From contig CALAJP010000122.1 in assembly GCA_937922815.1 (NCBI GenBank), forward strand, positions 1 through 40,937: a stretch of 40,937 nt of DNA, in the 5' to 3' direction. Shown here piece after piece: positions 15,264 to 38,433 of this stretch (position 1 is its first letter; each line of letters opens with the position of its first letter). The notes below the pieces were generated by a model. The model ran no database searches, was not told the origin of the DNA, and worked only from the letters and a program-made list of their open reading frames with translations. Both the position numbers and the translations under genes were made by a program. This DNA is from an uncultured Saprospiraceae bacterium. GTDB lineage: Bacteria > Bacteroidota > Bacteroidia > Chitinophagales > Saprospiraceae.

Positions 15264-18200
15264 ATGAAAAAAATATCCTACATATTAACTCTAATTCTTG
15301 TTAGCTTACTTGGAGATCTTGTTGCTCAACAACATTTTGAATTAGAAAGTAATACAGGAAAGTTTAAAGTTGCAAACATATCGGAGGGCATAACGATATG
15401 CGGCTTAGAACCTACAAAAGCGTATAGAGTTCAAATTCTGAAAGATAGATATAAAGACAAGAACAGTTACCGGTTTTTGCGTACTAACCTTACCGATAGT
15501 TTATTAGTAGCCTCTACAGATTGTCATCGTTTTAGTTTAGAAACTATTAATGAGTTCGATGCAAAAAGCTTTAAGAAAAATGACGTTTATATAAATGTGG
15601 CTCAACCTTCGACTAAAGCTGCCTCGAGAATGCCCATGAGCATTGCTTCTCAGCAAGACGGATTAGCACTTGTACAGCAGTTTGTAGGAGATGTTTGTGG
15701 TGATATAGTTGAAGAAAGTATTCGTGTATCGGGCTGGTTAGGAACTTTTACAGGGGCAGATAATATCTTAGGCTTTGATGATGGGATTGTGATGGGAACT
15801 AATGATATTCAATATTCTGCAGGAAGCAATAATAACTCTGGAATAGATAGAACTCAAAACCCTCTTCCTACGAGAGAAGATGATTTGCAAGCATTGGTGG
15901 GCGGAAGTCTATGGGAAAATAGACAAGGCGTTTTTGATGTTACGACCATTGAGTTTGACTTTGTTCCTACATCAAGTCGAATTACATTTGAATATGTTTT
16001 TGCATCGAAGGAGTATTGTGAATTTGTAAATGAATTTAATGATGCTTTTGGATTCTTTCTAAGTGGTCCTGGAATAGCAGGGAACTTCACCAATGCGGCT
16101 CAAAATATTGCATTGGTTCCTAATTCTAATGATTTTGTATCTATCAATAATATTAATCATTTAAAAAATACAGAATTTTATATCAATAATATTCCCAACA
16201 GTAATACCCATTCGGAAGAATTTGGAGATTGTGGTGCATATATTTTAAATAACCCTGCGGTCAATGATAGAAACTTTAGAATGGATGGATATACCATTCC
16301 TTTGGTTGCAGAAGCAGAAGTGATTCCTTGTGAAACTTATCATATTAAACTTGTTATTGGTGATGCCTTTGACGATGGTTTTGACTCTGCGGTATATCTT
16401 CGTTCTAAATCGTTTCGCTCGACAGGAGATGTATATGTTGAGTTTGATTTTCCAAATTCAGACTCTATTCTTTACGAAGGTTGTGACCAAGAGGGAATTA
16501 TTCGCTTTGTGAGAACGGATGATGGACAAGAAGATTTGATTGTTGATGTACAAAAATTAGGTACTGCATTAGAAAACCAAGATGTAGAATTTTCATTTCA
16601 AGATGAAGTAGTAATTCCTCCAGGGGGAGTTTTAGAAGAATTTGTCTATATCATTGAAGATAATGAAGACGAAGAAAGAGAAAGTGTTATTATAGATATA
16701 GGTGTTGCTTGTAATTGCGATAGACCGTTTTATGAATTTTATATTGAAGACGTAAAACCTATTACAGTATCGCTGAATGATACCGTTCATTGTCAAAATG
16801 AAGGAGATTTACTGTTAATTCCAACTATTACAGGCGGATTACCTGCGGTAAACTCTAGTATCGATTATATCTATGAATGGTCGGACGGTGTTACAACAGC
16901 AAGTCATGGTTTTCAACCTGGTTTTAACGATGTTCTTCAATTGAATGTATCAGATGGGTGCAAGTCGAGTAACGAAACGGTTTCTGTTCAGGTAAGAGAG
17001 GAGATAACAGGAACATTGGTAGGGCCGCCTCCTACTAGTTGTTCAGATTCTATTAATACTAGCCTAAGTATTGTGTTTACGGGAGAAAAGCCCTATTATT
17101 TTCAATATTCGGTAGATGGCGTATTATCCGAATTGATAGCAACTACCGAAAATAATTATGAACTACCCATTGATAAAATAGGCAATTATAAATTAGAAAA
17201 TGTAGCTAACGACTATTGTGTAGGTTCTGTATCTGGCGAATTAAATATAGAATTTATCCCTATTCAAGTAAATACAGAAGTAATAAAAGTTACCTGCCAC
17301 GATGCTACCGACGCTAGTATTTTGATAAATAATCCTAATGATGTAGAATATACATATTTGTGGAATACAGGAGCAATAACGGCTAATTTAGAAAATATAG
17401 GAGCAGGTGATTATTCAGTAACGATTAGTTCTCCGACTTGTAATATTTCTAGGTCATTTACAATCGAAACGCCGCCAGCTTTAAGCCTAAATACTAGTAT
17501 TTTGAGTATTCCTGATTGTGTCAACTTTCAAAACGGAAGTATTGAACTGACTATTACAGGTGGAGTAGAGCCTTATAACACGCTTTGGTCACCTATGTTT
17601 GGAGATAGAACTAGATTGTTAGTTGATAATCTAAGTACGGGAATTTATACAGCAAGGGTAACAGATGATAATGGATGTATTAGGGATATAGATACGGAAT
17701 TGGTGCCTGCAGATGGTATGCCTACCATTAATATAGTTTCGGGGCGACCGATTAGTTGTGTGGATTTTAATTCCAATTTAGACGCTAGTTTATCTACTCA
17801 GGGAGATAGTATTACATTTAATTGGCAGACTCAAGATGGAAATTTTGAAACGGGAGAGAATACACTTCAACCAACAGTTGATGTACCTGCGGTTTATCAA
17901 CTAATATTAACAAATACGAATAATAATTGTACCAATGCGGGTTTTGCAGAAATTGCTGATGGGCGGGTTTTTCCAGCGATTTTGCCCATTGAAGATAAAG
18001 AATTTTTCTGTAGATTTTCTGATATTTCATTTACGCCAACAGTCAGTAATCTTTCAGATATAAATCCTAGTTATAATTGGTCAACGACGGACGGAAATAT
18101 AGTAAACGGTAGAAATTCATCGACTGTTGGGGTCAATCAACCAGGTACCTATCGTTTTAGTGTAACCAATACAATTTCGGGTTGCGAAACTTCTGCCAAC

Positions 18201-20012
18201 GCTTTGGTTAATTATAATTTAGCATTGCCTAGTGTTGATGCAGGAATAGATTCTGTTTTAAATTGCTATGAAGATGAAATTTGGATAGGTTCAGAAAGTA
18301 ATGGAAATCAAGATGGTACAACTATTCAGTGGTATCGAAATAGTTCTCCTTTACCGTCCTTTGATTCAACTCATATTTTAGTGAATACACCTAATTTTTA
18401 TTCTGTTAGAGTCACTGAGAATGTAAGCGGTTGTTTTTCTGAAGATGAAGTTTTTATTGACGAGGATAAAGCGATTCCTTTAATATCTGCAGGGGTAAAT
18501 GATACCTTTTCGTGTACCAAAAACTTGATTCCTCTCGTGGGGCAAAATTTGTCATCATCGAGAAATATTGTATTTGAATGGTTTTCTAACAATGGAGTTA
18601 TTACAGGTAGTACGAATACTCTTGTTTCAGAAGCCAATTCGCCAGGAGATTTTCAATTAACTGCCTTAGACGTTGATAACGGTTGTTCTACTACGGATTT
18701 AATGAGAGTTATTCCAGATCCTAATTTACCTTTTATTCAATTTTCTGAATCAGGTATTCTGACATGTAGTAATCCAGAACAAATGCTAAATTTCAGCACT
18801 GATATTGGAAATGCAATGACACTTGAATTTCCTAATGGCACCATTCAAAATTTTAATACTTCTTCTTCTAATATAGCGGCGGTTGATTCAGGAATATATA
18901 TTTTGGAGGTTCAAAGAAGTTCTGACAATTGTATTAATAGAAGTTCTGTATATTTAGACTTAGATAAAGAAATTCCTTCGGATTCTTTATTACCTTTTGA
19001 AGAATTGTTTTGTAACCAACAAAATGAAACACTTAGGTTAGCAAATTCTACCAACCAAGACTTTACCTTTAATTGGGAAACTACGAATGGAAATATTGTA
19101 GGAAGTAATAGACAACCTTCTGTCTCTGTCGAAGGGGCAGGGAATTACGGTGTTACGATTACTCGTAAAAGAAATGGGTGTACCTTGAGAATTGACACAA
19201 TGGTGGTTGATTATTTAAATGTACCTACCTCTTTTGATGCTAGTATTTTGCAACCCGTTTGCCCTGGAGAGGGCGGTTCTATAGCATTCCAGTCTGTTGA
19301 TGGGGGAGAAGCACCTTATAGATTTAAAATATTCACCAATGCGGAGTATCAAATCCAAAGAAACTATTTTGATTTAAGTGCTGGAAATTATCAACTGCAT
19401 ATTACGGATGCTAATGGTTGTGAATTGATGCAAAATGAAATAATTAATGCACCTCGAGAAATTGATTTTTCTGCAACAGAACAAGAAATTATAGAATTGG
19501 GGGATGAATACACCGTTTCTTTGAATACGAATGTACCTGTCTCCGAAATTGATACTATTATTTGGTTTCCAAATCTCATAGAACCTTCTTGTGATAATTG
19601 CTTAAATCCGACTTTTATACCTACCGTATCGACGAACCATCGAATTGAGTTAGTAGATACATTTGGTTGTAGAGCATTGGCTACCTTGCCTATTTTTGTA
19701 GATACGAATGTTGATATTTTTATACCTAACGTGTTTAGTCCTTTGGCTACCAATGAAGTGAATACTTCGGCTCAAATATTTGCAAAAAGTGAAGCGATTA
19801 ACAATATTAAACGTTTTGCTTTATATGATAGGTGGGGAGGATTGGTTTATGAGTCTAAAAACTTTTCGCCAGGAGATAATGGAAGAAATCAGTGGGCAGG
19901 AGTTTTTAAAAATAATAGCCTAAATAATTCTGTTTTTGTATATGTCGCTGAAGTTGAATTTATAGATGGAGTCGTAAAAGTATTTACGGGAGATATTACA
20001 CTATTAAATTAG
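15264..20012 (+). CDS. Giant T9SS type B secreted protein with choice-of-anchor-L domain and tandem Ig-like modules, 1582 aa
   Basis: A signal peptide ends near DLVAQQ. Residues ~130-390 form a choice-of-anchor-L domain (RVSGWLGTFTGADNILGFDDG, then TIEFDFVPTSSRITFEYVFASKEYCEF and AFGFFLSGPGI). After a PKD/SprB-like section (about 390-819), residues 820-1321 contain six tandem modules of ~84 residues. Each has an early Cys, a central aromatic strand with Trp in most copies, a GxY strand and a late Cys, with Pro at the boundary. One SprB-like repeat (SILQPVCPGEGGSIAF) and a linker domain lead into the T9SS type B (gliding-motility-associated) CTD at ~1486-1582: FIPNVFSP, FALYDRWGGLVYES, FKNNSLNNSVFVYVAEV. 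It is probably exported by T9SS and surface-attached; an adhesin role is inference. Confidence 0.9.
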   Translation: MKKISYILTLILVSLLGDLVAQQHFELESNTGKFKVANISEGITICGLEPTKAYRVQILKDRYKDKNSYRFLRTNLTDSLLVASTDCHRFSLETINEFDAKSFKKNDVYINVAQPSTKAASRMPMSIASQQDGLALVQQFVGDVCGDIVEESIRVSGWLGTFTGADNILGFDDGIVMGTNDIQYSAGSNNNSGIDRTQNPLPTREDDLQALVGGSLWENRQGVFDVTTIEFDFVPTSSRITFEYVFASKEYCEFVNEFNDAFGFFLSGPGIAGNFTNAAQNIALVPNSNDFVSINNINHLKNTEFYINNIPNSNTHSEEFGDCGAYILNNPAVNDRNFRMDGYTIPLVAEAEVIPCETYHIKLVIGDAFDDGFDSAVYLRSKSFRSTGDVYVEFDFPNSDSILYEGCDQEGIIRFVRTDDGQEDLIVDVQKLGTALENQDVEFSFQDEVVIPPGGVLEEFVYIIEDNEDEERESVIIDIGVACNCDRPFYEFYIEDVKPITVSLNDTVHCQNEGDLLLIPTITGGLPAVNSSIDYIYEWSDGVTTASHGFQPGFNDVLQLNVSDGCKSSNETVSVQVREEITGTLVGPPPTSCSDSINTSLSIVFTGEKPYYFQYSVDGVLSELIATTENNYELPIDKIGNYKLENVANDYCVGSVSGELNIEFIPIQVNTEVIKVTCHDATDASILINNPNDVEYTYLWNTGAITANLENIGAGDYSVTISSPTCNISRSFTIETPPALSLNTSILSIPDCVNFQNGSIELTITGGVEPYNTLWSPMFGDRTRLLVDNLSTGIYTARVTDDNGCIRDIDTELVPADGMPTINIVSGRPISCVDFNSNLDASLSTQGDSITFNWQTQDGNFETGENTLQPTVDVPAVYQLILTNTNNNCTNAGFAEIADGRVFPAILPIEDKEFFCRFSDISFTPTVSNLSDINPSYNWSTTDGNIVNGRNSSTVGVNQPGTYRFSVTNTISGCETSANALVNYNLALPSVDAGIDSVLNCYEDEIWIGSESNGNQDGTTIQWYRNSSPLPSFDSTHILVNTPNFYSVRVTENVSGCFSEDEVFIDEDKAIPLISAGVNDTFSCTKNLIPLVGQNLSSSRNIVFEWFSNNGVITGSTNTLVSEANSPGDFQLTALDVDNGCSTTDLMRVIPDPNLPFIQFSESGILTCSNPEQMLNFSTDIGNAMTLEFPNGTIQNFNTSSSNIAAVDSGIYILEVQRSSDNCINRSSVYLDLDKEIPSDSLLPFEELFCNQQNETLRLANSTNQDFTFNWETTNGNIVGSNRQPSVSVEGAGNYGVTITRKRNGCTLRIDTMVVDYLNVPTSFDASILQPVCPGEGGSIAFQSVDGGEAPYRFKIFTNAEYQIQRNYFDLSAGNYQLHITDANGCELMQNEIINAPREIDFSATEQEIIELGDEYTVSLNTNVPVSEIDTIIWFPNLIEPSCDNCLNPTFIPTVSTNHRIELVDTFGCRALATLPIFVDTNVDIFIPNVFSPLATNEVNTSAQIFAKSEAINNIKRFALYDRWGGLVYESKNFSPGDNGRNQWAGVFKNNSLNNSVFVYVAEVEFIDGVVKVFTGDITLLN

Positions 20013-28630: not shown

Positions 28631-30706
28631 TTAGACTAACGAAACATTGGTATTCGGTTCTTTAAGGGTAGAGGTTAGAGGTCTATTTTTACTTTCTAGA
28701 CGATTGGAATGGGGGATGTTAATAGTAAATTCGGTGCCAATGTCTGGTTTTGAATTTATTTTTATTTTTCCATTATAATGGTTTACTAATATTTCAACGG
28801 CAGATAATCCTAATCCAGGAGTTTGAATTTTAGTAGAATTCAATTTATAAAAAGGTTGGAAAATTTTATTTATTTTATCTTTTTCAATTCCAATGCCATT
28901 ATCTAGTACGGAGATACTTATTTCGTATTCTTTTTTCTGTACGGAGACTATAATTTTGGGTGAAATGTCTTCTTTGGAAAAAATGAGTGCATTTTTGATA
29001 ATGTTTTCGAAAATGGTGATGAAATTGGTATAACAAAACTCGAAGGGTTGATTTTCACTTCCTTTCCATTCTATCTTTGCGTTCTTATCTTCGATTAAGT
29101 TTTTTAGATTAAATAGGGCAGTTTGATAGGCATCATAAATATTGATTTTTTTAAAATGGTTTTTATTTAAATCTAAACAAGCAAATTTAAGGTAGGCATC
29201 TACGACTAAATTCATGTTTTCTAGTGTATCATCTATTAATACTTTATATTCACTATTGCTGGGGTTTGATTGTAATTCGTTTACAAAAATTTTGATATTT
29301 CGAAGCGGGGATTTAAAATCATTCGACAGAGAAAAAGATAAATCCGTCATTATTTGGTTGGCTCTTTTAACCTGTAAGTATTTTTGTTCCAGTAGGTTTT
29401 GATTGTTTAATAACTGTTTATTAAGTTTCGATTTTTCTTGGTTTGATTTTCTTACAGACCTCAAGTGTTTAACGAGTGCCAAAAAAAGTATAAAGATTAA
29501 GAAAGAAGTTATCGTTAACCAGCGAGATTTTTCTTTAAAAAATATACTTTGCTGTTCTGTTAATGCTAATTGTTGATCTAACTTTTCGATTGTTCTTATT
29601 TTATCGAAAGCCATTTTTTTATCATTGGTTTTTTCTTGATTTATTTTTGCTAGTAAATCTTCTATTTTTTTTAGTGTAATAGATAAGCCATCATAATCTT
29701 TAGTTTTCTTTTGGTACTCCGAGGCACCCTTAAGGATGGATAAAGAATAAGTATTGGGCAATTCAGCTACTATTAGATTAAGGTGGGTTAAATATTTTTT
29801 TTCGTTAAAGTTGAATATAGCTCTATAATCTTTACTGTCTTCGTTAAACAATAGAGATATTAACATATCTGCTATGTTAACATTAGTATTTAATGAATTA
29901 TGTTGATATTCTTTAGAGAGAAGAAATTCAGTAAATAAACTATTATTTTCATAAGGAGGGCCATCGAAATTAGATTTAAAAACTCTTTTCCATATTTCGA
30001 CCATAGCTATAATGTAGTCTTCAGTGTAGTTTTTGTTACGATTAAGCTGTTGGGTGAAATAATCTAATTCTTCTTTTTTTCCAGAATAAGTAGTCGCTAG
30101 GAATACTATATATTTAGGTTGTTGTTCTAATTGATGAAGCGTGTTTTTGGTTAGGGCGTCAGTTATGGTTTTTTCTTTAAATTGCTTTAAGTTACTTTTA
30201 TTAATATAGTTGATTGCGTACATTGAAGTACTTATAAAATAGACTTTTAAATTATTTTGTTCTAACGATTTAGAGATTGCTATAAGGTTTAGATTTTCTC
30301 CTTTAGCTTTTTTTCCTAATTCGTGATAAAATATGCTAAATAAATGTGTAGTACGGACTTCGTCGTCTATAAATGGAAGTATTTCATCCATTAATGAAAG
30401 TGTATTTTTACTATCATTCGAAAAATAATATAATGAAGCTAAATTAGTACCATGCCAAACTATGGATCTATGGTCGGGAGTTTCTTTTGCTTTTTGATAT
30501 TCTTTATGATGGTAATAGTAAAGTGCTTCGGAATTACTTTGGCAGAATTGAATGTTAGCAATTATTAAAGGAATTTCTTTTGCCCTTAACTCTTCTTCTA
30601 ATTCAAAATAGTGCTGAAGGTTACGAATTTCATAATGTTCGGGCGAGGCTATAAGTAATGAGCCATAAAGTAAGAATATTAATGTGGTAAGTTTTGAAAA
30701 ATTCAT
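28631..30706 (-). CDS. Sensor histidine kinase-like protein lacking the phospho-acceptor histidine, 691 aa
   Basis: A signal peptide (MNFSKLTTLIFLLYGSLLIAS) precedes a ~370-residue helical sensor domain outside the cytoplasm. A transmembrane helix (WLTITSFLIFILFLALV), a short coiled coil, a DHp-like region and a HATPase_c domain follow. The H-box reads SLSNDFKSPLRN: the position normally occupied by the autophosphorylated His is Asn, codon AAT at 29321-29323. The ATP lid motifs look intact: N-box ENIIKNAL, G1 DNGIGI, F-box FQPFYK, G2 GLGLSAVE. It may thus be a pseudokinase that binds ATP and acts allosterically or in a heterodimer. I chose ATG 30706; ATG 30718 adds four residues. No response regulator is nearby; another orphan kinase gene lies upstream. 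Confidence 0.88.
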   Translation of the reverse strand: MNFSKLTTLIFLLYGSLLIASPEHYEIRNLQHYFELEEELRAKEIPLIIANIQFCQSNSEALYYYHHKEYQKAKETPDHRSIVWHGTNLASLYYFSNDSKNTLSLMDEILPFIDDEVRTTHLFSIFYHELGKKAKGENLNLIAISKSLEQNNLKVYFISTSMYAINYINKSNLKQFKEKTITDALTKNTLHQLEQQPKYIVFLATTYSGKKEELDYFTQQLNRNKNYTEDYIIAMVEIWKRVFKSNFDGPPYENNSLFTEFLLSKEYQHNSLNTNVNIADMLISLLFNEDSKDYRAIFNFNEKKYLTHLNLIVAELPNTYSLSILKGASEYQKKTKDYDGLSITLKKIEDLLAKINQEKTNDKKMAFDKIRTIEKLDQQLALTEQQSIFFKEKSRWLTITSFLIFILFLALVKHLRSVRKSNQEKSKLNKQLLNNQNLLEQKYLQVKRANQIMTDLSFSLSNDFKSPLRNIKIFVNELQSNPSNSEYKVLIDDTLENMNLVVDAYLKFACLDLNKNHFKKINIYDAYQTALFNLKNLIEDKNAKIEWKGSENQPFEFCYTNFITIFENIIKNALIFSKEDISPKIIVSVQKKEYEISISVLDNGIGIEKDKINKIFQPFYKLNSTKIQTPGLGLSAVEILVNHYNGKIKINSKPDIGTEFTINIPHSNRLESKNRPLTSTLKEPNTNVSLV

Positions 30707-31013
30707 TATTAAAACCATTTAATGAAATTAGTAAGGTTGAGTACATTATATATGGTTTGTGTTTGTAATATGTAAAATCAAAACTTGTGCCAATAGACCG
30801 ACTTTTTTTATAAAACAAATATTTTTTTACAACTGGGGAATATAATAGACTTTATTACGAATGAATTCATATGGATTAAAAATGTTCTTTTTACTTCACT
30901 CTTCGTCAAGTATTCATCTTAATACCTATGGGTATTAGATTTCGTGCTTTCCTTGATTGAAATAAAAATTCCTGTTTTTTCTCTCATACAATCTAATTCG
31001 TAATAATATCTAT
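30707..31013. promoter_or_regulatory. 307-bp gap between the two sensor-kinase genes
   Basis: No gene is visible. The stretch holds a 7-bp inverted repeat, TAATACC-tatg-GGTATTA at 30920-30937, which could be an operator or a weak structure. The sequence is otherwise AT-rich and should contain the promoter of the histidine-less kinase. I could not identify a full promoter. Confidence 0.3.
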
Positions 31014-33125
31014 TCATTCTACAGTACCATGTGTCTGGTTTTTAATAAGAATTTGGTTAGAATCATTTGCAGCTGCTTTTATTTTTATGTGGAAAGTGGT
31101 GTAATGGTTAAGTTTAGATTCAACCCAAATTTTACCATCCATACTTTCAATAATTTTAGCACATGACGAAAGCCCTATTCCTGAACCAGGATACTCGGAC
31201 GAACGGTGAACTTTTGTGAAGAGATTGAAAATGTCATCTAAATATTCATTTGCTATACCAATACCATTATCGGTTATACTTATTTGAATCCAACCATTAC
31301 CTAAGTCCTTATGAGAAATGTTAATCTCTGGGCTTGTATGAGGTCTACTGAATTTTAGAGAATTGGAAAGTATATTTTGAAACAAAACAGATATTAAAGT
31401 GAAATCACCTAATATTTTGGGTAAGTTTTTATAATTTATTGTCGCATTACTTGTTGTGATCGATGAAGACAAATTGTGTATTACGATGAATAACACATTT
31501 TCTAAAGAAACGACACCCATCTTTTTCTTAGTTCCTGCTATTTTTGAAAATTCTAATATATCATCAACTAATCGAATTAGGTAGAGGCAACTATTTTGAA
31601 TCATTAAAAATATATCTTTATCTTCTGCTTTTACTAAAGGTAGGTATTTGTCATTAAGTATTTCGTTTAGTGTTTTTATAGTACCAAGGGGTGATTTTAA
31701 ATCGTGGGCAGCTACATAAGCAAAAGAAGACAAGCTTTGATTTGCTTTTTCTAGTTTTGCGTTTGTTTTAGTCAATTCATGTTGTTGGAATTGAATAGTC
31801 CTCATTTTTTCTGAAATATCTTTATTCAACAAGACTAATTTTTTATTTGACTTTTCTTGCCGTTTTAACAGTCTATACCCCCATATACTTACAATTAACA
31901 ATATTACGGCAAGTATGGAGAAGAAAATAGTGTAGAATTTTTGTTTTAATAAAGTAATTCGATACTGTGATTCTTCAGCTTTTAGTCTATTGTTTTCGAT
32001 TGTTTTATCTACAATCCATTGTCCTTGTTCTATCCATGTATTTTGTCCTACTCTTCTTAATGTACCTACAATATCTTTTAGGTAACTTTTTTTTCGTTGA
32101 ATCTCTAACTCTTTTTTTATATTGTTATTTCGAGCATAGTATTCGACCAATAAGTTTGATATTCTAATACCTTCGTCTAATATTTGATTTTCTATACAAA
32201 GAGAAAGTCCTTTTTTGGCCCACTCTTCCATCAATTTCTTATTTCCTAAATTTTTATAGCTTATAGATTTGAGTAAGTAAGCCCTTGCAATTAAACTAGG
32301 GCTAGCTAATGTAGACAAGGAGGGTAACATTTGATCGAGCTCTGTAATAGCTGTGTTAGGATCAGTGACACTAAGTATTTCATTGGCTATTAAGGTAGTA
32401 TTTACTTTCCCTCGAACGAAGTTGATAGAATCCCAATGTTTAAAAGCGATTTGACAATATTCTAACGCTTTGTCATAATTACCTACTGCAAAATAGGCAT
32501 AAGCTAGACCATTAGCGGACCAACCGATATTTTCTACAAAAAGATCTTCTTCTAACGATAATTTAAAGGATTCTTCGGCTTTAAGTAATGCTTTGTCGTA
32601 ATCACGAAGTTTTATATAGGTAACAGCAAAGTTCGTTAACGATTCCATTATCCAGTTGCTGTTTCCTGCTTTAATGGCTATGTCGTTAAATTTTTGATTA
32701 TAATATAATGATATTTCGTATTGACGAAGTTCTGTATAAGAAAGGTTTAGAAATGTATAACTTCCCGCCAATAGTTCATCTCTATTTAGGCTTATAGCTA
32801 ATTGTTCACTTTTATTAAGCTTTTTTATCGCATTGGTATAGTCTCCCGTAAAATAGTAATATAAGCCTAACTCCATTAATGACCTACATTCACCATATAT
32901 ATACCCTATATCTTTACTTTTTTTCAATGCGGGTTTGATGAAAAAAGGCATTGAATCTACATTTAATGCTCTGTGTTTTTCTGCTATTTTGATTAACGAA
33001 TCCACTTCATTCGCTCCTTTGGGGCGAAAATCGCCATCTTGAGTTTTCGCGGTCTGACCGAAAACCAATAAGAGGGTAACGATACAATGAAGGGGTAAGA
33101 ATATATTTAGAAATCTTCCACGCAT
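31014..33125 (-). CDS. TPR-containing membrane sensor histidine kinase, 703 aa
   Basis: A signal peptide (MRGRFLNIFLPLHCIVTLLLVFGQ) is followed by a ~350-residue array of tetratricopeptide-like helices (GLYYYFTGDYTNAIKKLNKSE, GLAYAYFAVGNYDKALEYCQIAF). A transmembrane helix follows (FYTIFFSILAVILLIVSIWGY), then a coiled coil (KLVLLNKDISEKMRTIQ...LEKANQS). The DHp H-box AYVAAHDLKSPLGTIKTL has the phospho-acceptor His at codon 31704-31706. HATPase motifs are NILSNSLKFS, DNGIGI, LFTKVHRS and GSGIGLSSC. It autophosphorylates in response to an envelope or cytoplasmic cue; the cue and response regulator are unknown, since none is encoded nearby. The start at 33125 gives a clean signal peptide. An upstream in-frame ATG at 33209 would add 28 basic residues. 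A TAAATTTG -7-like element lies at 33194-33201. Confidence 0.92.
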   Translation of the reverse strand: MRGRFLNIFLPLHCIVTLLLVFGQTAKTQDGDFRPKGANEVDSLIKIAEKHRALNVDSMPFFIKPALKKSKDIGYIYGECRSLMELGLYYYFTGDYTNAIKKLNKSEQLAISLNRDELLAGSYTFLNLSYTELRQYEISLYYNQKFNDIAIKAGNSNWIMESLTNFAVTYIKLRDYDKALLKAEESFKLSLEEDLFVENIGWSANGLAYAYFAVGNYDKALEYCQIAFKHWDSINFVRGKVNTTLIANEILSVTDPNTAITELDQMLPSLSTLASPSLIARAYLLKSISYKNLGNKKLMEEWAKKGLSLCIENQILDEGIRISNLLVEYYARNNNIKKELEIQRKKSYLKDIVGTLRRVGQNTWIEQGQWIVDKTIENNRLKAEESQYRITLLKQKFYTIFFSILAVILLIVSIWGYRLLKRQEKSNKKLVLLNKDISEKMRTIQFQQHELTKTNAKLEKANQSLSSFAYVAAHDLKSPLGTIKTLNEILNDKYLPLVKAEDKDIFLMIQNSCLYLIRLVDDILEFSKIAGTKKKMGVVSLENVLFIVIHNLSSSITTSNATINYKNLPKILGDFTLISVLFQNILSNSLKFSRPHTSPEINISHKDLGNGWIQISITDNGIGIANEYLDDIFNLFTKVHRSSEYPGSGIGLSSCAKIIESMDGKIWVESKLNHYTTFHIKIKAAANDSNQILIKNQTHGTVE

Positions 33126-33270
33126 GAAAAAACGAGATTTATGGTTTTTATATGATTTACGACATTTATCAAAAATTGTTATTGTTAAAGAACCAAATTT
33201 ACTAAACATCCCCTATTTTTTGATATCGTAAGGAAGGTTTTTTATGTTGTTTTAAAATTAAACACCCCCT

Positions 33271-34362: not shown

Positions 34363-34779
34363 TCTAGGATTTAAAATTTTTTATACTCAAAAGTATAAAT
34401 TTAATTACGGTTTTTATAATGCTCAAACCTCAATTTTCGACACTGAGGAATCCTTAAGTTTTTAATATTCTTTTATTTAGATGGATTCAGTTTTAATTTT
34501 TCCAACATTGAATAAAATAGAGAGTGTTAGCATCTTTATAAGATTTCTATTATCTTCGTTTCTAAAATTTTAAAATCGTTTTACTTATTCAGTTTTAATG
34601 AGTAAGAAGTAAAATTTATAGACGTTAAAGTAAATAATAATTCAATATTTTTAGTTCTTTGTTCGTTTGAAAAACATTATTATATAAACCCTGTAAGCTT
34701 TTGTGTCGAATTTTAGACCCTAAAACTTCTAAGGTTGATATTAGTTTTTAATTTAATACGAATTATATTAATCAATATT
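34363..34779. promoter_or_regulatory. 417-bp divergent region between rlmH and the P-domain T9SS protein
   Basis: No gene is seen. For rlmH (minus), 34388-34395 reads TACTTTTG, matching the Bacteroidota -7 consensus. For the plus-strand gene, TATCTTCG at 34551-34558 lies 20 bp after TTAG (34527-34530), close to the -33/-7 arrangement used in this phylum. It would give a leader of roughly 215 bases before the ATG at 34780, long enough for post-transcriptional control. All of this is by-eye matching. Confidence 0.4.
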
Positions 34780-37700
34780 ATGATTTTTAGTCGGTTTCTG
34801 TTTTCTCATATTAGAATATTTTCAATTCTCTTTCTTAGTTTTTTATTTTCCATACAGCTGTATAGTCAATGTGTCTGTACGGATTGTGGAATTAGTATAG
34901 CTGATCAAGCTAATGAAAGACAATCATTATATGTTAATTATTTAGCCAATGAGGATTTGGGCGTTAACCAAACACTTTCAGAAATAAAATTGGTTATTCA
35001 ACATGATTATATCGCAGACCTTAAAGTAACTTTAATTTCGCCTTCTAATGATGAAATCACATTAATAGGGAAACCTGATAACTTGAACGATGAATTTAGA
35101 ACAAGAGGAACTATTTTTGACGTGTCTTTTATTCCTTCAACCAGTGTAGCTCAACCCGCTGAAAATTTTGACGCAACATGGACAAATTCGAATTTATTTG
35201 GTTCTAATAAAACCATAGAAGGAAGTTACTACCCCTATGATGGTGATTTGTCAGCTTTGACGGGTGTAGCTAATGGATTATGGCAGTTAGAGTTTGAAGA
35301 TTTTAATCCACAAGACTCGGGTAGACTCGTAATGTTTGAATTGGTGTTTTCCAATAACGAACCTGTTGCGGGCTTTGACAAAGCAATATGTGCGACCAAC
35401 GCTTGTAATATGTTTTTTGTGGACGATTTTAATGGAATGCCAATATGTTCTGATGCAGAACTGAACATTAAGTTTACTAATCAAAACAATATTGGTTCTA
35501 TTCAGTGGACTGGGACTAATGGAGGTTCTGTAGAGAGTGGTGCAACTACGAATAATGTAACACTAGAAGGGGGAGGCGATTATGAAGTCGCTATTTCTGA
35601 TCCTACTAACACTTGTGAAGAAAAAGTAGTATATAATATTACGGAGGTTAACACTCCAGCCTCTGCAACCACAGATACTGAAAATAGACTTACTTGTTCG
35701 CAAACCAATTTAAACCTTGATGTTCCTAGTGATTTACCTAACGATTCCTATTCATTTGAATGGAAAGATGAAAAGGATCAGCCCCAAGGAACACAAAGAA
35801 CTTTAAATGTAAATACGGCTCAAGTGTATTCTTTAGAAACTACACACCTTGCTAGCGGTTGTGTTGCTGTTGCAGATTATACAGTCTCGATGGATACCGT
35901 TACGCCCAAAAATATTTTACTTGAAGAAGTAGTAACGGAAAAAAACTGTACGGAACCACACAAGTTAACACTATTTGCTCTCAAAGAAGATTTAAGTGCT
36001 TTTACACCAGTTTGGTATTTGCCAGATGGAAGTAGAATCAGCGCCGATACTTTAATCTCTAATTTAGATGGTACTTTTGAGTTTGCTTTGTTAGCCGATA
36101 ATGGTTGTGAGGGAGCAAAATTCTCATACGTGTCAGAAATTGATACTCAAAAATTGGACTTTAAGGTATCGGTTGAGAATAATGAAGAATTGGGTTGCGA
36201 AATTAGTAAAGTACAAATTAGAGCTGATATTAATACTGATGAAAGAAAAGGATTTAAGTGGACAGGACCTAGTAATTTTGAATCTACAAATCTATTTGAT
36301 AGCGTAGGGTTGCCTGGAATCTATACGGCTGAAGTAATAGGCAACAATAATTGTGTTTCAATGAAAAGCATTGAAGTCAAAAACGACCCTTCTATCCCAA
36401 GTGTACAAGTCGACTTGGGCACAAAAACGGCTTGCAATACGGAATTATTAAAAGCTACAATCACAGGAAATACAAATGGTTACGCGAGAGAATGGACTAA
36501 TTCGTTAGGAGACGTGGTTTCTTCAGATACTGAGTTTGAAGCTGATAAGTCTGGACTTTATACTTTTACTTTAACTGATGGTTCATGTACCTTGGTTGAT
36601 ACTAGAAATGTATTAATTAACGATACAAAACCTGTTGCTAGGCCCGAATCTTCAAGTAAATTAGATTGTTCAAATCAAAATACAGGTATTATTTTATCAG
36701 GTAGAACATCAACAGGTGTTTTAGGAACAGCAGGCTTAAACTATAAATGGTTAGATCAGAATGGTGTTAATCTAGCGAATCTTCAAGATATTACGATTAC
36801 AGAAGCAGGAAGTTATAACTTAATCGTAATAGATAGAAGCAATTTTTGTGCTGATACCACTCAAATTGATATTCAATCAAGTACGGATTTACCAACATTT
36901 ACTTTTATGGATATTCAATTGCCATTGGATACGGTAGATTGTTACCAACCTGTTTTATTGCCTTATTTAGACGGAATTACAGTAGCAAATATCACGATAG
37001 GTTGGTTCAGGAATGATGTAGAAATAGGTAGTTCGTCACAACAAGCTATAGACCAAGAAGGCAAATACAAGGCAGTCGTTACTAATAATTTAAACGGATG
37101 TAGTTACGAAGAATCCTTTGAAGTTACTGATACTCGCGAATTTCCTATTTTAGTCATCTCTGAAAGAACTTTGCCTGTAGTGAGTTGTCGAAACCCCGTT
37201 GCAGAAATTCCCATTGAACGATCTATTCATCAGCCCAATCATTCTTATTTATGGACAGGGCCTGTTGACGGAATAGTCAGCGGTGAAGATTCTTCTGTTG
37301 TGATGGTCAAAACACCTGGAACTTATACTATAACACTTACCAATACAGATAATGGCTGTAATGATATGGAAAATATCGAAGTAAAAGGCGATTTGGATAT
37401 TCCTGATGTTTATGCTGCAAAAACGGGAAATTTAGACTGTAAAGATACTATTGTAAGAATTACGGGATCTGAACAAAAGGTTGGATTTAACTTTAGGTAT
37501 TCTTGGACAGGACCTAATAATTTTGAAAGCTTTAGTTTTAATAATGCGGTTAATGAACCTGGCGAATATAATTTAAGAGTTTTGGATGTAGGGAGTGGCT
37601 GTGACACAACGACTACCATTGAAGTTGAGCGAATTGAAAATACGTTTACTTCATTGAATGCTATTTCTAAATCGCCCACTTGTTGGGAAGGAGAAAACGG

Positions 37701-38433
37701 TACTATAACATTAAATACGCCTCTTGGAGGAACCGCCCCGTTTACGTATCTTCTTGAAGATATAGACACCATTAATACTTCATTAATTGATTCTCTTACC
37801 CCTGGAACATACAAAGTTAAAGTTATAGACAAAGGGTTTTGTGAATTAGAGGAGAATGTAACTGTATTTAACCCTACTTTTTTTGAGTTAGATATTACAG
37901 GAAAAAAAGAGATTAATTTAGGAGAGGAATTAGTCTTATCTCATACCTCTAATTATATATTAGATACGCTTTATTGGGAAGGAGTGAGTTATCAAGATAC
38001 CTGTGTGTCTGTCTGTGGAGATATAAGTTTTTTCCCAACACGTTCTCAAAGTTTAAAATTAACGGCCATTTCTGATTTGGGTTGTGAACAATTTGCTTTT
38101 CATACTATCGAAGTAGATGATAGTAGTTTAGATGTGAACTATGCCAACGCACTATCGTTGAACGGCAAGCGAGACGTTAACTTTCAATGGGAAGCTCATT
38201 TTGGAGCCTCGGTTAAAAGGGTAGAAGACTTATCTATTTTCAATCGCTGGGGAAACTTAATGATTCAAAAAAACTCTTTTCCCGATGAAAGTACCAACAA
38301 AACAGAATTGATGATATCGAAAGATGAACTAATAAACCTAGGCCTTCAACCTGGGGTATATCTATTCCAAATGAGTGTTGAATATATTGATGGTAGAAAA
38401 AGCACCGTTACAGGAGATTTTATGGTTTTCTAA
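34780..38433 (+). CDS. T9SS-exported protein with N-terminal P-domain and nine tandem Ig-like modules, 1217 aa
   Basis: A signal peptide (ending FLFSIQLYSQ) leads to a short Cys-rich stretch and a proprotein-convertase P-domain at about 67-190 (SEIKLVIQHDYIADLKVTLISP, DFNPQDSGRLVMFELVFSN). No protease domain accompanies it. Residues 195-954 hold nine modules of ~84 residues with an early Cys (LxC), mid Trp, GxY and late Cys (GC), like those in the 1582-residue protein. A SprB-like repeat (TCWEGENGTITLNTPLGGTAPFTYLLE), a pre-tail domain (INLGEELVLSH) and a type B-like T9SS tail follow (LSIFNRWGNLMIQ, LGLQPGVYLFQMSVEYIDGRKSTVTGDFMVF). The tail lacks the usual PNVFSPNGDG opening. Probably surface-exposed, with adhesion a guess. 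The start at ATG 34780 avoids an extra 15-residue stretch from TTG 34735. Confidence 0.87.
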   Translation: MIFSRFLFSHIRIFSILFLSFLFSIQLYSQCVCTDCGISIADQANERQSLYVNYLANEDLGVNQTLSEIKLVIQHDYIADLKVTLISPSNDEITLIGKPDNLNDEFRTRGTIFDVSFIPSTSVAQPAENFDATWTNSNLFGSNKTIEGSYYPYDGDLSALTGVANGLWQLEFEDFNPQDSGRLVMFELVFSNNEPVAGFDKAICATNACNMFFVDDFNGMPICSDAELNIKFTNQNNIGSIQWTGTNGGSVESGATTNNVTLEGGGDYEVAISDPTNTCEEKVVYNITEVNTPASATTDTENRLTCSQTNLNLDVPSDLPNDSYSFEWKDEKDQPQGTQRTLNVNTAQVYSLETTHLASGCVAVADYTVSMDTVTPKNILLEEVVTEKNCTEPHKLTLFALKEDLSAFTPVWYLPDGSRISADTLISNLDGTFEFALLADNGCEGAKFSYVSEIDTQKLDFKVSVENNEELGCEISKVQIRADINTDERKGFKWTGPSNFESTNLFDSVGLPGIYTAEVIGNNNCVSMKSIEVKNDPSIPSVQVDLGTKTACNTELLKATITGNTNGYAREWTNSLGDVVSSDTEFEADKSGLYTFTLTDGSCTLVDTRNVLINDTKPVARPESSSKLDCSNQNTGIILSGRTSTGVLGTAGLNYKWLDQNGVNLANLQDITITEAGSYNLIVIDRSNFCADTTQIDIQSSTDLPTFTFMDIQLPLDTVDCYQPVLLPYLDGITVANITIGWFRNDVEIGSSSQQAIDQEGKYKAVVTNNLNGCSYEESFEVTDTREFPILVISERTLPVVSCRNPVAEIPIERSIHQPNHSYLWTGPVDGIVSGEDSSVVMVKTPGTYTITLTNTDNGCNDMENIEVKGDLDIPDVYAAKTGNLDCKDTIVRITGSEQKVGFNFRYSWTGPNNFESFSFNNAVNEPGEYNLRVLDVGSGCDTTTTIEVERIENTFTSLNAISKSPTCWEGENGTITLNTPLGGTAPFTYLLEDIDTINTSLIDSLTPGTYKVKVIDKGFCELEENVTVFNPTFFELDITGKKEINLGEELVLSHTSNYILDTLYWEGVSYQDTCVSVCGDISFFPTRSQSLKLTAISDLGCEQFAFHTIEVDDSSLDVNYANALSLNGKRDVNFQWEAHFGASVKRVEDLSIFNRWGNLMIQKNSFPDESTNKTELMISKDELINLGLQPGVYLFQMSVEYIDGRKSTVTGDFMVF

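Follow-up and report, generated by a model that had tools for sequence, protein, structure and literature searches.

The sensor kinase-like protein P0001, encoded in the window (the whole stretch of 40,937 nucleotides analysed here, from an uncultured Saprospiraceae bacterium), has an asparagine at the site where HisKA-type kinases carry their phospho-acceptor histidine. We lean towards reading it as a pseudo-histidine kinase of the DivL/RetS kind, signalling by binding other kinases or response regulators. The genome as a whole has accumulated His-less sensors: they represent 6 of its 33 HisKA-type kinases, and four of the six lie inside an expansion that is confined to this genome among those searched.

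Table 1. Coordinates of the features discussed; positions are those of the window unless a contig is named
Feature	Position	Strand	Basis or remark
P0001, sensor kinase-like protein, 695 aa	28631-30718 (protein: 28634..30718)	-	open reading frame
HATPase_c domain of P0001	28709..29020	-	75.3 bits in the genome search, above the Pfam cut-off
Thr633 of P0001, first position of the G2 box	28820..28822	-	core alignment
Ile579 of P0001, N-box Lys position	28982..28984	-	core alignment
Ser470 of P0001, H-box position +4 (Thr/Asn in the E/DxxT/N phosphatase motif)	29309..29311	-	core alignment
Asn466 of P0001, codon AAT (ATT on the + strand), replacing the phospho-acceptor His	29321-29323	-	alignment
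P0002, TPR-type sensor kinase with a normal H-box	31014-33209	-	longest open reading frame; lies upstream, 295 nt from where P0001 starts
C193a (His) and C193b (Ser), natural active/inactive pair	L102:2337-6274 (G000:C193)		overlapping as ATGA, 4 bases

The H-box of P0001 is SLSNDFKSPLRN. Asn466 falls in the acceptor column by alignment, and its codon is one base away from CAT; both points had been made in the first-pass annotation and were borne out. The column is occupied by His in all 28 outside loci (L034-L061) taken from a longer list of matches, and in three further outside loci (L340-L342). It is His as well in 43/43 comparison rows of the core alignment, by construction: the 29 outside rows were selected with a His-containing pattern, and the 14 rows from the same genome are those with His. 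An alternative acceptor histidine was looked for in the dimerisation helices (residues about 440-513) and none was found there; from residue 395 onward, P0001 has His solely at 418, which adjoins the membrane, and at 521, 647 and 670. Given Asn466, helices without His and a predicted kinase core, P0001 is not expected to become phosphorylated at the usual site, which supports, as an expectation, the earlier claim that the protein cannot autophosphorylate there.

From N- to C-terminus, P0001 is made of a putative signal peptide, an extracytoplasmic region some 370 residues long, one transmembrane helix (near 398-418), HisKA-like helices and a HATPase_c domain, the signal peptide and the membrane helix being read by eye from the sequence. 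In a Pfam search of the protein, HATPase_c scores 71 bits for a cut-off of 26.4, and no PAS domain is matched. The HisKA profile PF00512 gives no match either, at E 0.1 on the protein or at E 0.001 in the genome search, but this absence alone says little, since six His-bearing kinases of the genome (C302, C280b, C35, C193a, C258 and C226) also escape it at E 0.001. The frame is open over 695 codons, where about 56 stops are expected in a random sequence of the same composition. In a structure model built from an alignment of eight rows, residues ~400 to 670 fold well (pLDDT blocks 73-95), while the sensor half is poor (mostly below 70), its N-terminal part being helical with low confidence. 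Foldseek matches of the core include HK853, YycG and DivL, and according to the model this core is a confidently predicted histidine-kinase core. Scans for promoters and terminators gave no signal above shuffles, and the region ahead of P0001 contains no match to a Bacteroidota promoter pattern.

The four ATP-site boxes had been described as intact. This holds for most positions (N572, N576, D606, G608, G610, F620, F623, G635, G637 and L638 are kept), but not for the first Gly of the G2 box and the Lys of the N-box, which are replaced by Thr633 and Ile579. Among His-bearing comparison rows, the column of Thr633 is Gly in 41/41 of those with a residue (two have a gap), and that of Ile579 is Lys in 40/43, with one Thr, one Tyr and one Ile.

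We then counted HisKA-type kinases by way of their ATPase, that is, through their HATPase_c domain. The genome has 39 HATPase_c matches: 27 belong to HisKA-type kinases with the acceptor His, six to HisKA-type kinases without it, and six to other ATPases or kinase types. The six His-less kinases carry Asn (P0001 and C150a), Ser (C193b), Gln (C181), Phe (C295) and Lys (C3) at the acceptor site; in C150a, C193b and C295, the most divergent, the acceptor column rests on the alignment. The five other than P0001 are 667-727 aa long, with a long N-terminal part, a hydrophobic segment (seen by eye) and the kinase core. Their sensor sequences differ from that of P0001, and the ATP site is degraded in C150a and C295, and partly in C193b.

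Three further kinase matches, C10, C271 and C282, fall outside the 39 ATPase matches and hence outside the count of 33; C271 and C282 carry the acceptor His, and C10 does not. C10 (L113:3263-5287) is a hybrid with receivers, whose H-box GFHLRTPM places Phe in the acceptor column, with His as the next residue; its ATPase part is degraded, PF00512 does match it, and it is possibly a seventh pseudokinase, of another type. C271 (L114:4260-6308), a 683-aa sensor, has a normal H-box (SHDIRQPLR) and no recognisable ATP-binding boxes, so that it is the RetS-like opposite of P0001.

As controls, we used four genomes of the same family, which we chose for similar size and good completeness and which hold 139 HATPase_c matches. 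Left out were masked rows (L240, L283), incomplete ones (L273, L332), ATPases without a clear dimerisation domain (L291, L317), and GyrB-, ParE-, MutL-, HtpG-, LytS-, HisKA_2-, HisKA_3- and anti-sigma-like matches. A single one of the 82 HisKA-type kinases in these genomes, L233 (G006:C8, around 89297-89605), is a kinase-like protein without a recognisable H-box His. The difference between 6/33 and 1/82 (Fisher p 0.0022) is to be taken as descriptive, as are the other census tests given here, because the kinases are mutually related, the controls were chosen by us, and residues were read by different means: by alignment in the genome under study, by pattern and eye in the controls, where 4 of the 81 His-bearing kinases (L227, L268, L277 and L278) were recognised by eye and not by the pattern. 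With matches of at least 50 bits alone, the counts become 3/30 against 1/80 (p 0.061); adding two unclassified control ATPases to the His-less kinases gives 6/33 against 3/84 (p 0.015). In a published survey, His is missing in 722 of 76,471 HisKA domains, or 0.9% (PMC12632262), and at that rate the binomial probability of 6/33 is 6e-7. In our genome, PF00512 (E 0.001) recovers 21 of the 27 kinases with His and none of the six without it, so that censuses based on HisKA profiles may undercount, and the published 0.9% may be too low.

Part of the His-less kinases belongs to an expansion of sensor kinases defined by a shared N-terminal part. This set, A2, comprises 14 kinases (12 rows of an alignment and the close copies C119a and C280b), with the acceptor His in 10 and without it in 4. 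When the A2 sensor profile was searched in 398 genomes of the same family (four best candidates scored per genome), no full-length kin was found outside the genome itself, the short matches reaching at best 2.3e-8; within the data searched, the expansion therefore looks restricted to the genus. The P0001 sensor has no more than weak matches to the others, the best being C303 (phmmer E 0.00038, set of 21 sequences), and the trees place P0001, with its long branch, between the expansion and kinases from outside.

A quick tree (49 rows) requires at least 4 changes between His and non-His, and a careful one (32 rows) at least 5; the longest branches are those of His-less rows. Joins between long branches were flagged as possibly false for C3/C295, C150a/C193b and C181/L035 on the quick tree, and for C3/C295 and C193a/C193b on the careful tree, where C3 and C295 are sisters with support 98/95. 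The sensors of C3 and C295 are each other's best match (32% identity, E 7e-59).

Two of the six His-less kinases stand in tandem with a His-bearing one. In addition to the C193 pair, C150a (Asn) stops 45 nt short of C150b (His), after which comes C150c (His). The genome has 29 receiver-domain matches. With the exception of C193, where the distance to C193b is some 25 kb, the contigs that carry P0001 and the 14 A2-set kinases are free of them. Several contigs end beside kinases, leaving neighbourhoods incomplete, and for the C280, C119 and C35 kinases partner genes may thus be cut off. Elsewhere in the genome, two open frames of 120 and 135 aa (G000:C197:22280-22612 and G000:C216:14176-14535) consist of little beyond a receiver domain; these receivers could be shared partners of the kinases that have no response regulator of their own.

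The kinase gene next to P0001 had been put at 31014-33125 and described as having a normal H-box. The H-box is indeed normal (AAHDLKSPLG) and the start of the range agrees, but the longest open reading frame reaches 33209, position 33125 corresponding to a start at Met29. It had also been named as a candidate for a heterodimer with P0001, and here the data lend no special support. The two cores are 29% identical and show no special similarity, P0002 groups with other kinases, apart from P0001, in both trees, and five His-bearing paralogues elsewhere in the genome outscore it against the P0001 core; a P0001-P0002 heterodimer may occur, but was accordingly not favoured. Also encoded in the window are putative secreted proteins of very large size (15264-20012 and 34735-38433); by eye, their C-termini resemble those of gliding/type IX-secreted proteins.

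Orthologues of P0001 were sought at several depths, in genomes that are samples of larger groups. A scan of GTDB r220 gave none and returned three distant kinases, and none was found among 60 relatives (up to 19 best candidates scored per genome). In 398 same-family genomes (four best candidates each), the N-terminus has, besides itself, short weak matches in five genomes (best 7.1e-4), and in 396 same-order genomes (two best candidates each), kinase-core matches occur in seven other genomes at no more than 33% identity, for an E cut-off of 1e-27. Scoring was limited to the top few candidates of each genome, so that a weak orthologue may have escaped. Within the genus, none was available to be found, the genome being the sole member in the data searched.

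Three known systems help to place P0001. DivL of Caulobacter has Tyr550 in place of the acceptor His, has neither kinase nor phosphatase activity and reads the regulator DivK in its phosphorylated form (PMC4211667). P0001 resembles it in its HisKA-type core, where a residue other than His takes the acceptor site, and this core matches DivL in Foldseek (4q20_B, TM-score by target 0.77). It differs in its sensor, which has PAS domains in DivL and is a different, predicted helical extracytoplasmic part without PAS match in P0001, in the residue itself (Tyr versus Asn) and in its distribution: DivL is conserved in alphaproteobacteria with DivK and CckA as partners, whereas P0001 has no orthologue found in the genomes searched. 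RetS of Pseudomonas aeruginosa is incapable of autophosphorylation and controls GacS in three ways (PMC5992135). Like P0001 as read here, it is a sensor kinase without autokinase activity (a presumed property for P0001), and it offers a model for the control of another kinase. RetS is a hybrid with receivers that keeps its H-box and lost its ATPase side, whereas P0001, devoid of receivers, has lost the His and retains the greater part of its ATPase side. Finally, a laboratory-evolved ChrS pseudokinase of Corynebacterium glutamicum depends on its intact paralogue HrrS (PMC9491836). It is an inactive kinase, as P0001 presumably is, whose effect needs an intact paralogue; it arose through a laboratory frameshift in the ATPase domain, and its His is retained but unused (PMC9491836). 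Judging by titles and the start of abstracts, with most of the subscription literature outside reach, we found among the papers listed no report on pseudo-histidine kinases in Bacteroidota.

A pseudo-histidine kinase is characterised by a kinase fold that is kept and by loss of the acceptor His or of the ATP site; P0001 has the fold, as predicted, and has lost the His. It would then be a membrane sensor that does not phosphorylate itself at the usual site, and that most likely transmits the state of its sensor through binding. P0001 might pair with the cell's own His-bearing sensor kinases or dock onto them, or it might hold a response regulator, as RetS and DivL do. This reading is supported by Asn466 with no other His in the dimerisation helices, by Thr633 and Ile579, by the intact frame, the confident core model and the presence of DivL among the structural matches, and also by the excess of His-less kinases over the control genomes, the two tandem pairs and the scarcity of receiver domains on the contigs concerned. 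Against it count the lack of an orthologue in the genomes searched, the weak sensor matches and long branch of P0001, the smaller excess when matches under 50 bits are dropped, and the truncated neighbourhoods. Kinase-dead alleles can also arise by plain decay.

Four other explanations are considered. That P0001 is a decaying paralogue, disabled recently or neutrally and without function, we hold to be unlikely. The single base that separates AAT from CAT fits such decay, as do the lack of an orthologue that would show constraint in the genomes searched, the loss of much of the ATP site in C150a, C295 and C271 of the same genome, and the long branches of the His-less rows. Against it stand a reading frame free of stops and a core fold that is coherent in the model, as well as the recurrence of the His-less state on both trees, and the pair formed by C3 and C295, both His-less, which have full frames and sensors that match each other best. 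That a single base of a normal kinase was misread or misassembled is conceivable in a draft assembly of 308 contigs, but we give it hardly any credence: Thr633, present in no His-bearing comparison row, and Ile579, present in few, argue against a slip in a kinase that is normal elsewhere, and the G2 change above all makes a single-base error unlikely as the whole explanation; the genome also has five other His-less kinases.

The two remaining explanations grant P0001 a catalytic role. It may be a phosphatase-only sensor, which would dephosphorylate a response regulator through the remaining D467xxS470 and never act as a kinase; this is possible because, according to the survey, HisKA phosphatase activity can do without the conserved His (PMC12632262), and Asp467 and a hydroxyl residue at +4 do remain. 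However, the classic motif is E/DxxT/N (PMC5727384), with Thr or Asn where P0001 has Ser. Moreover, position +4 is mostly Glu in the comparison rows (26/43, with 8 Ser and 2 Thr), so that phosphatase activity may not be a habit of such kinases, and the survey argues that it is not general in pseudo-histidine kinases (PMC12632262). We judge this role slightly less likely than decay. Less likely again, and in our opinion improbable, is a kinase acting in trans, its ATPase domain still binding ATP and, within a heterodimer, phosphorylating the partner's His. Both N-box Asn residues and the D/G1 and F boxes are kept, and HATPase_c is matched at 71-75 bits, but the first Gly of G2 and the N-box Lys are lost, the closest cores in the genome are only about 30% identical, and no partner was identified.

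If P0001 is a pseudo-histidine kinase, its genomic context would give this state a wider bearing. DivL, RetS and the evolved ChrS are single cases among the pseudo-histidine kinases met in the literature here. A genome with six His-less kinases, two of which adjoin an intact one, would point to repeated origins of the state. A broader scenario, which we put forward as speculative and would not bet on, is that the private expansion of kinases lacking response regulators has been turned into a network in which active kinases are joined by His-less sister receptors that evolved repeatedly. The sisters, sometimes derived from translationally coupled pairs, would be ligand-gated modulators of a few shared active kinases, like the receptor pseudokinases of animals, and would have been overlooked as fast-evolving proteins outside the usual HisKA profile. 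The tandem arrangements would provide natural pairs in which a kinase-dead sensor lies beside a live one, and the presence of six His-less sensors in one genome hints, as far as their sequences tell, that this bacterium may use 'dead' sensors as regulators.
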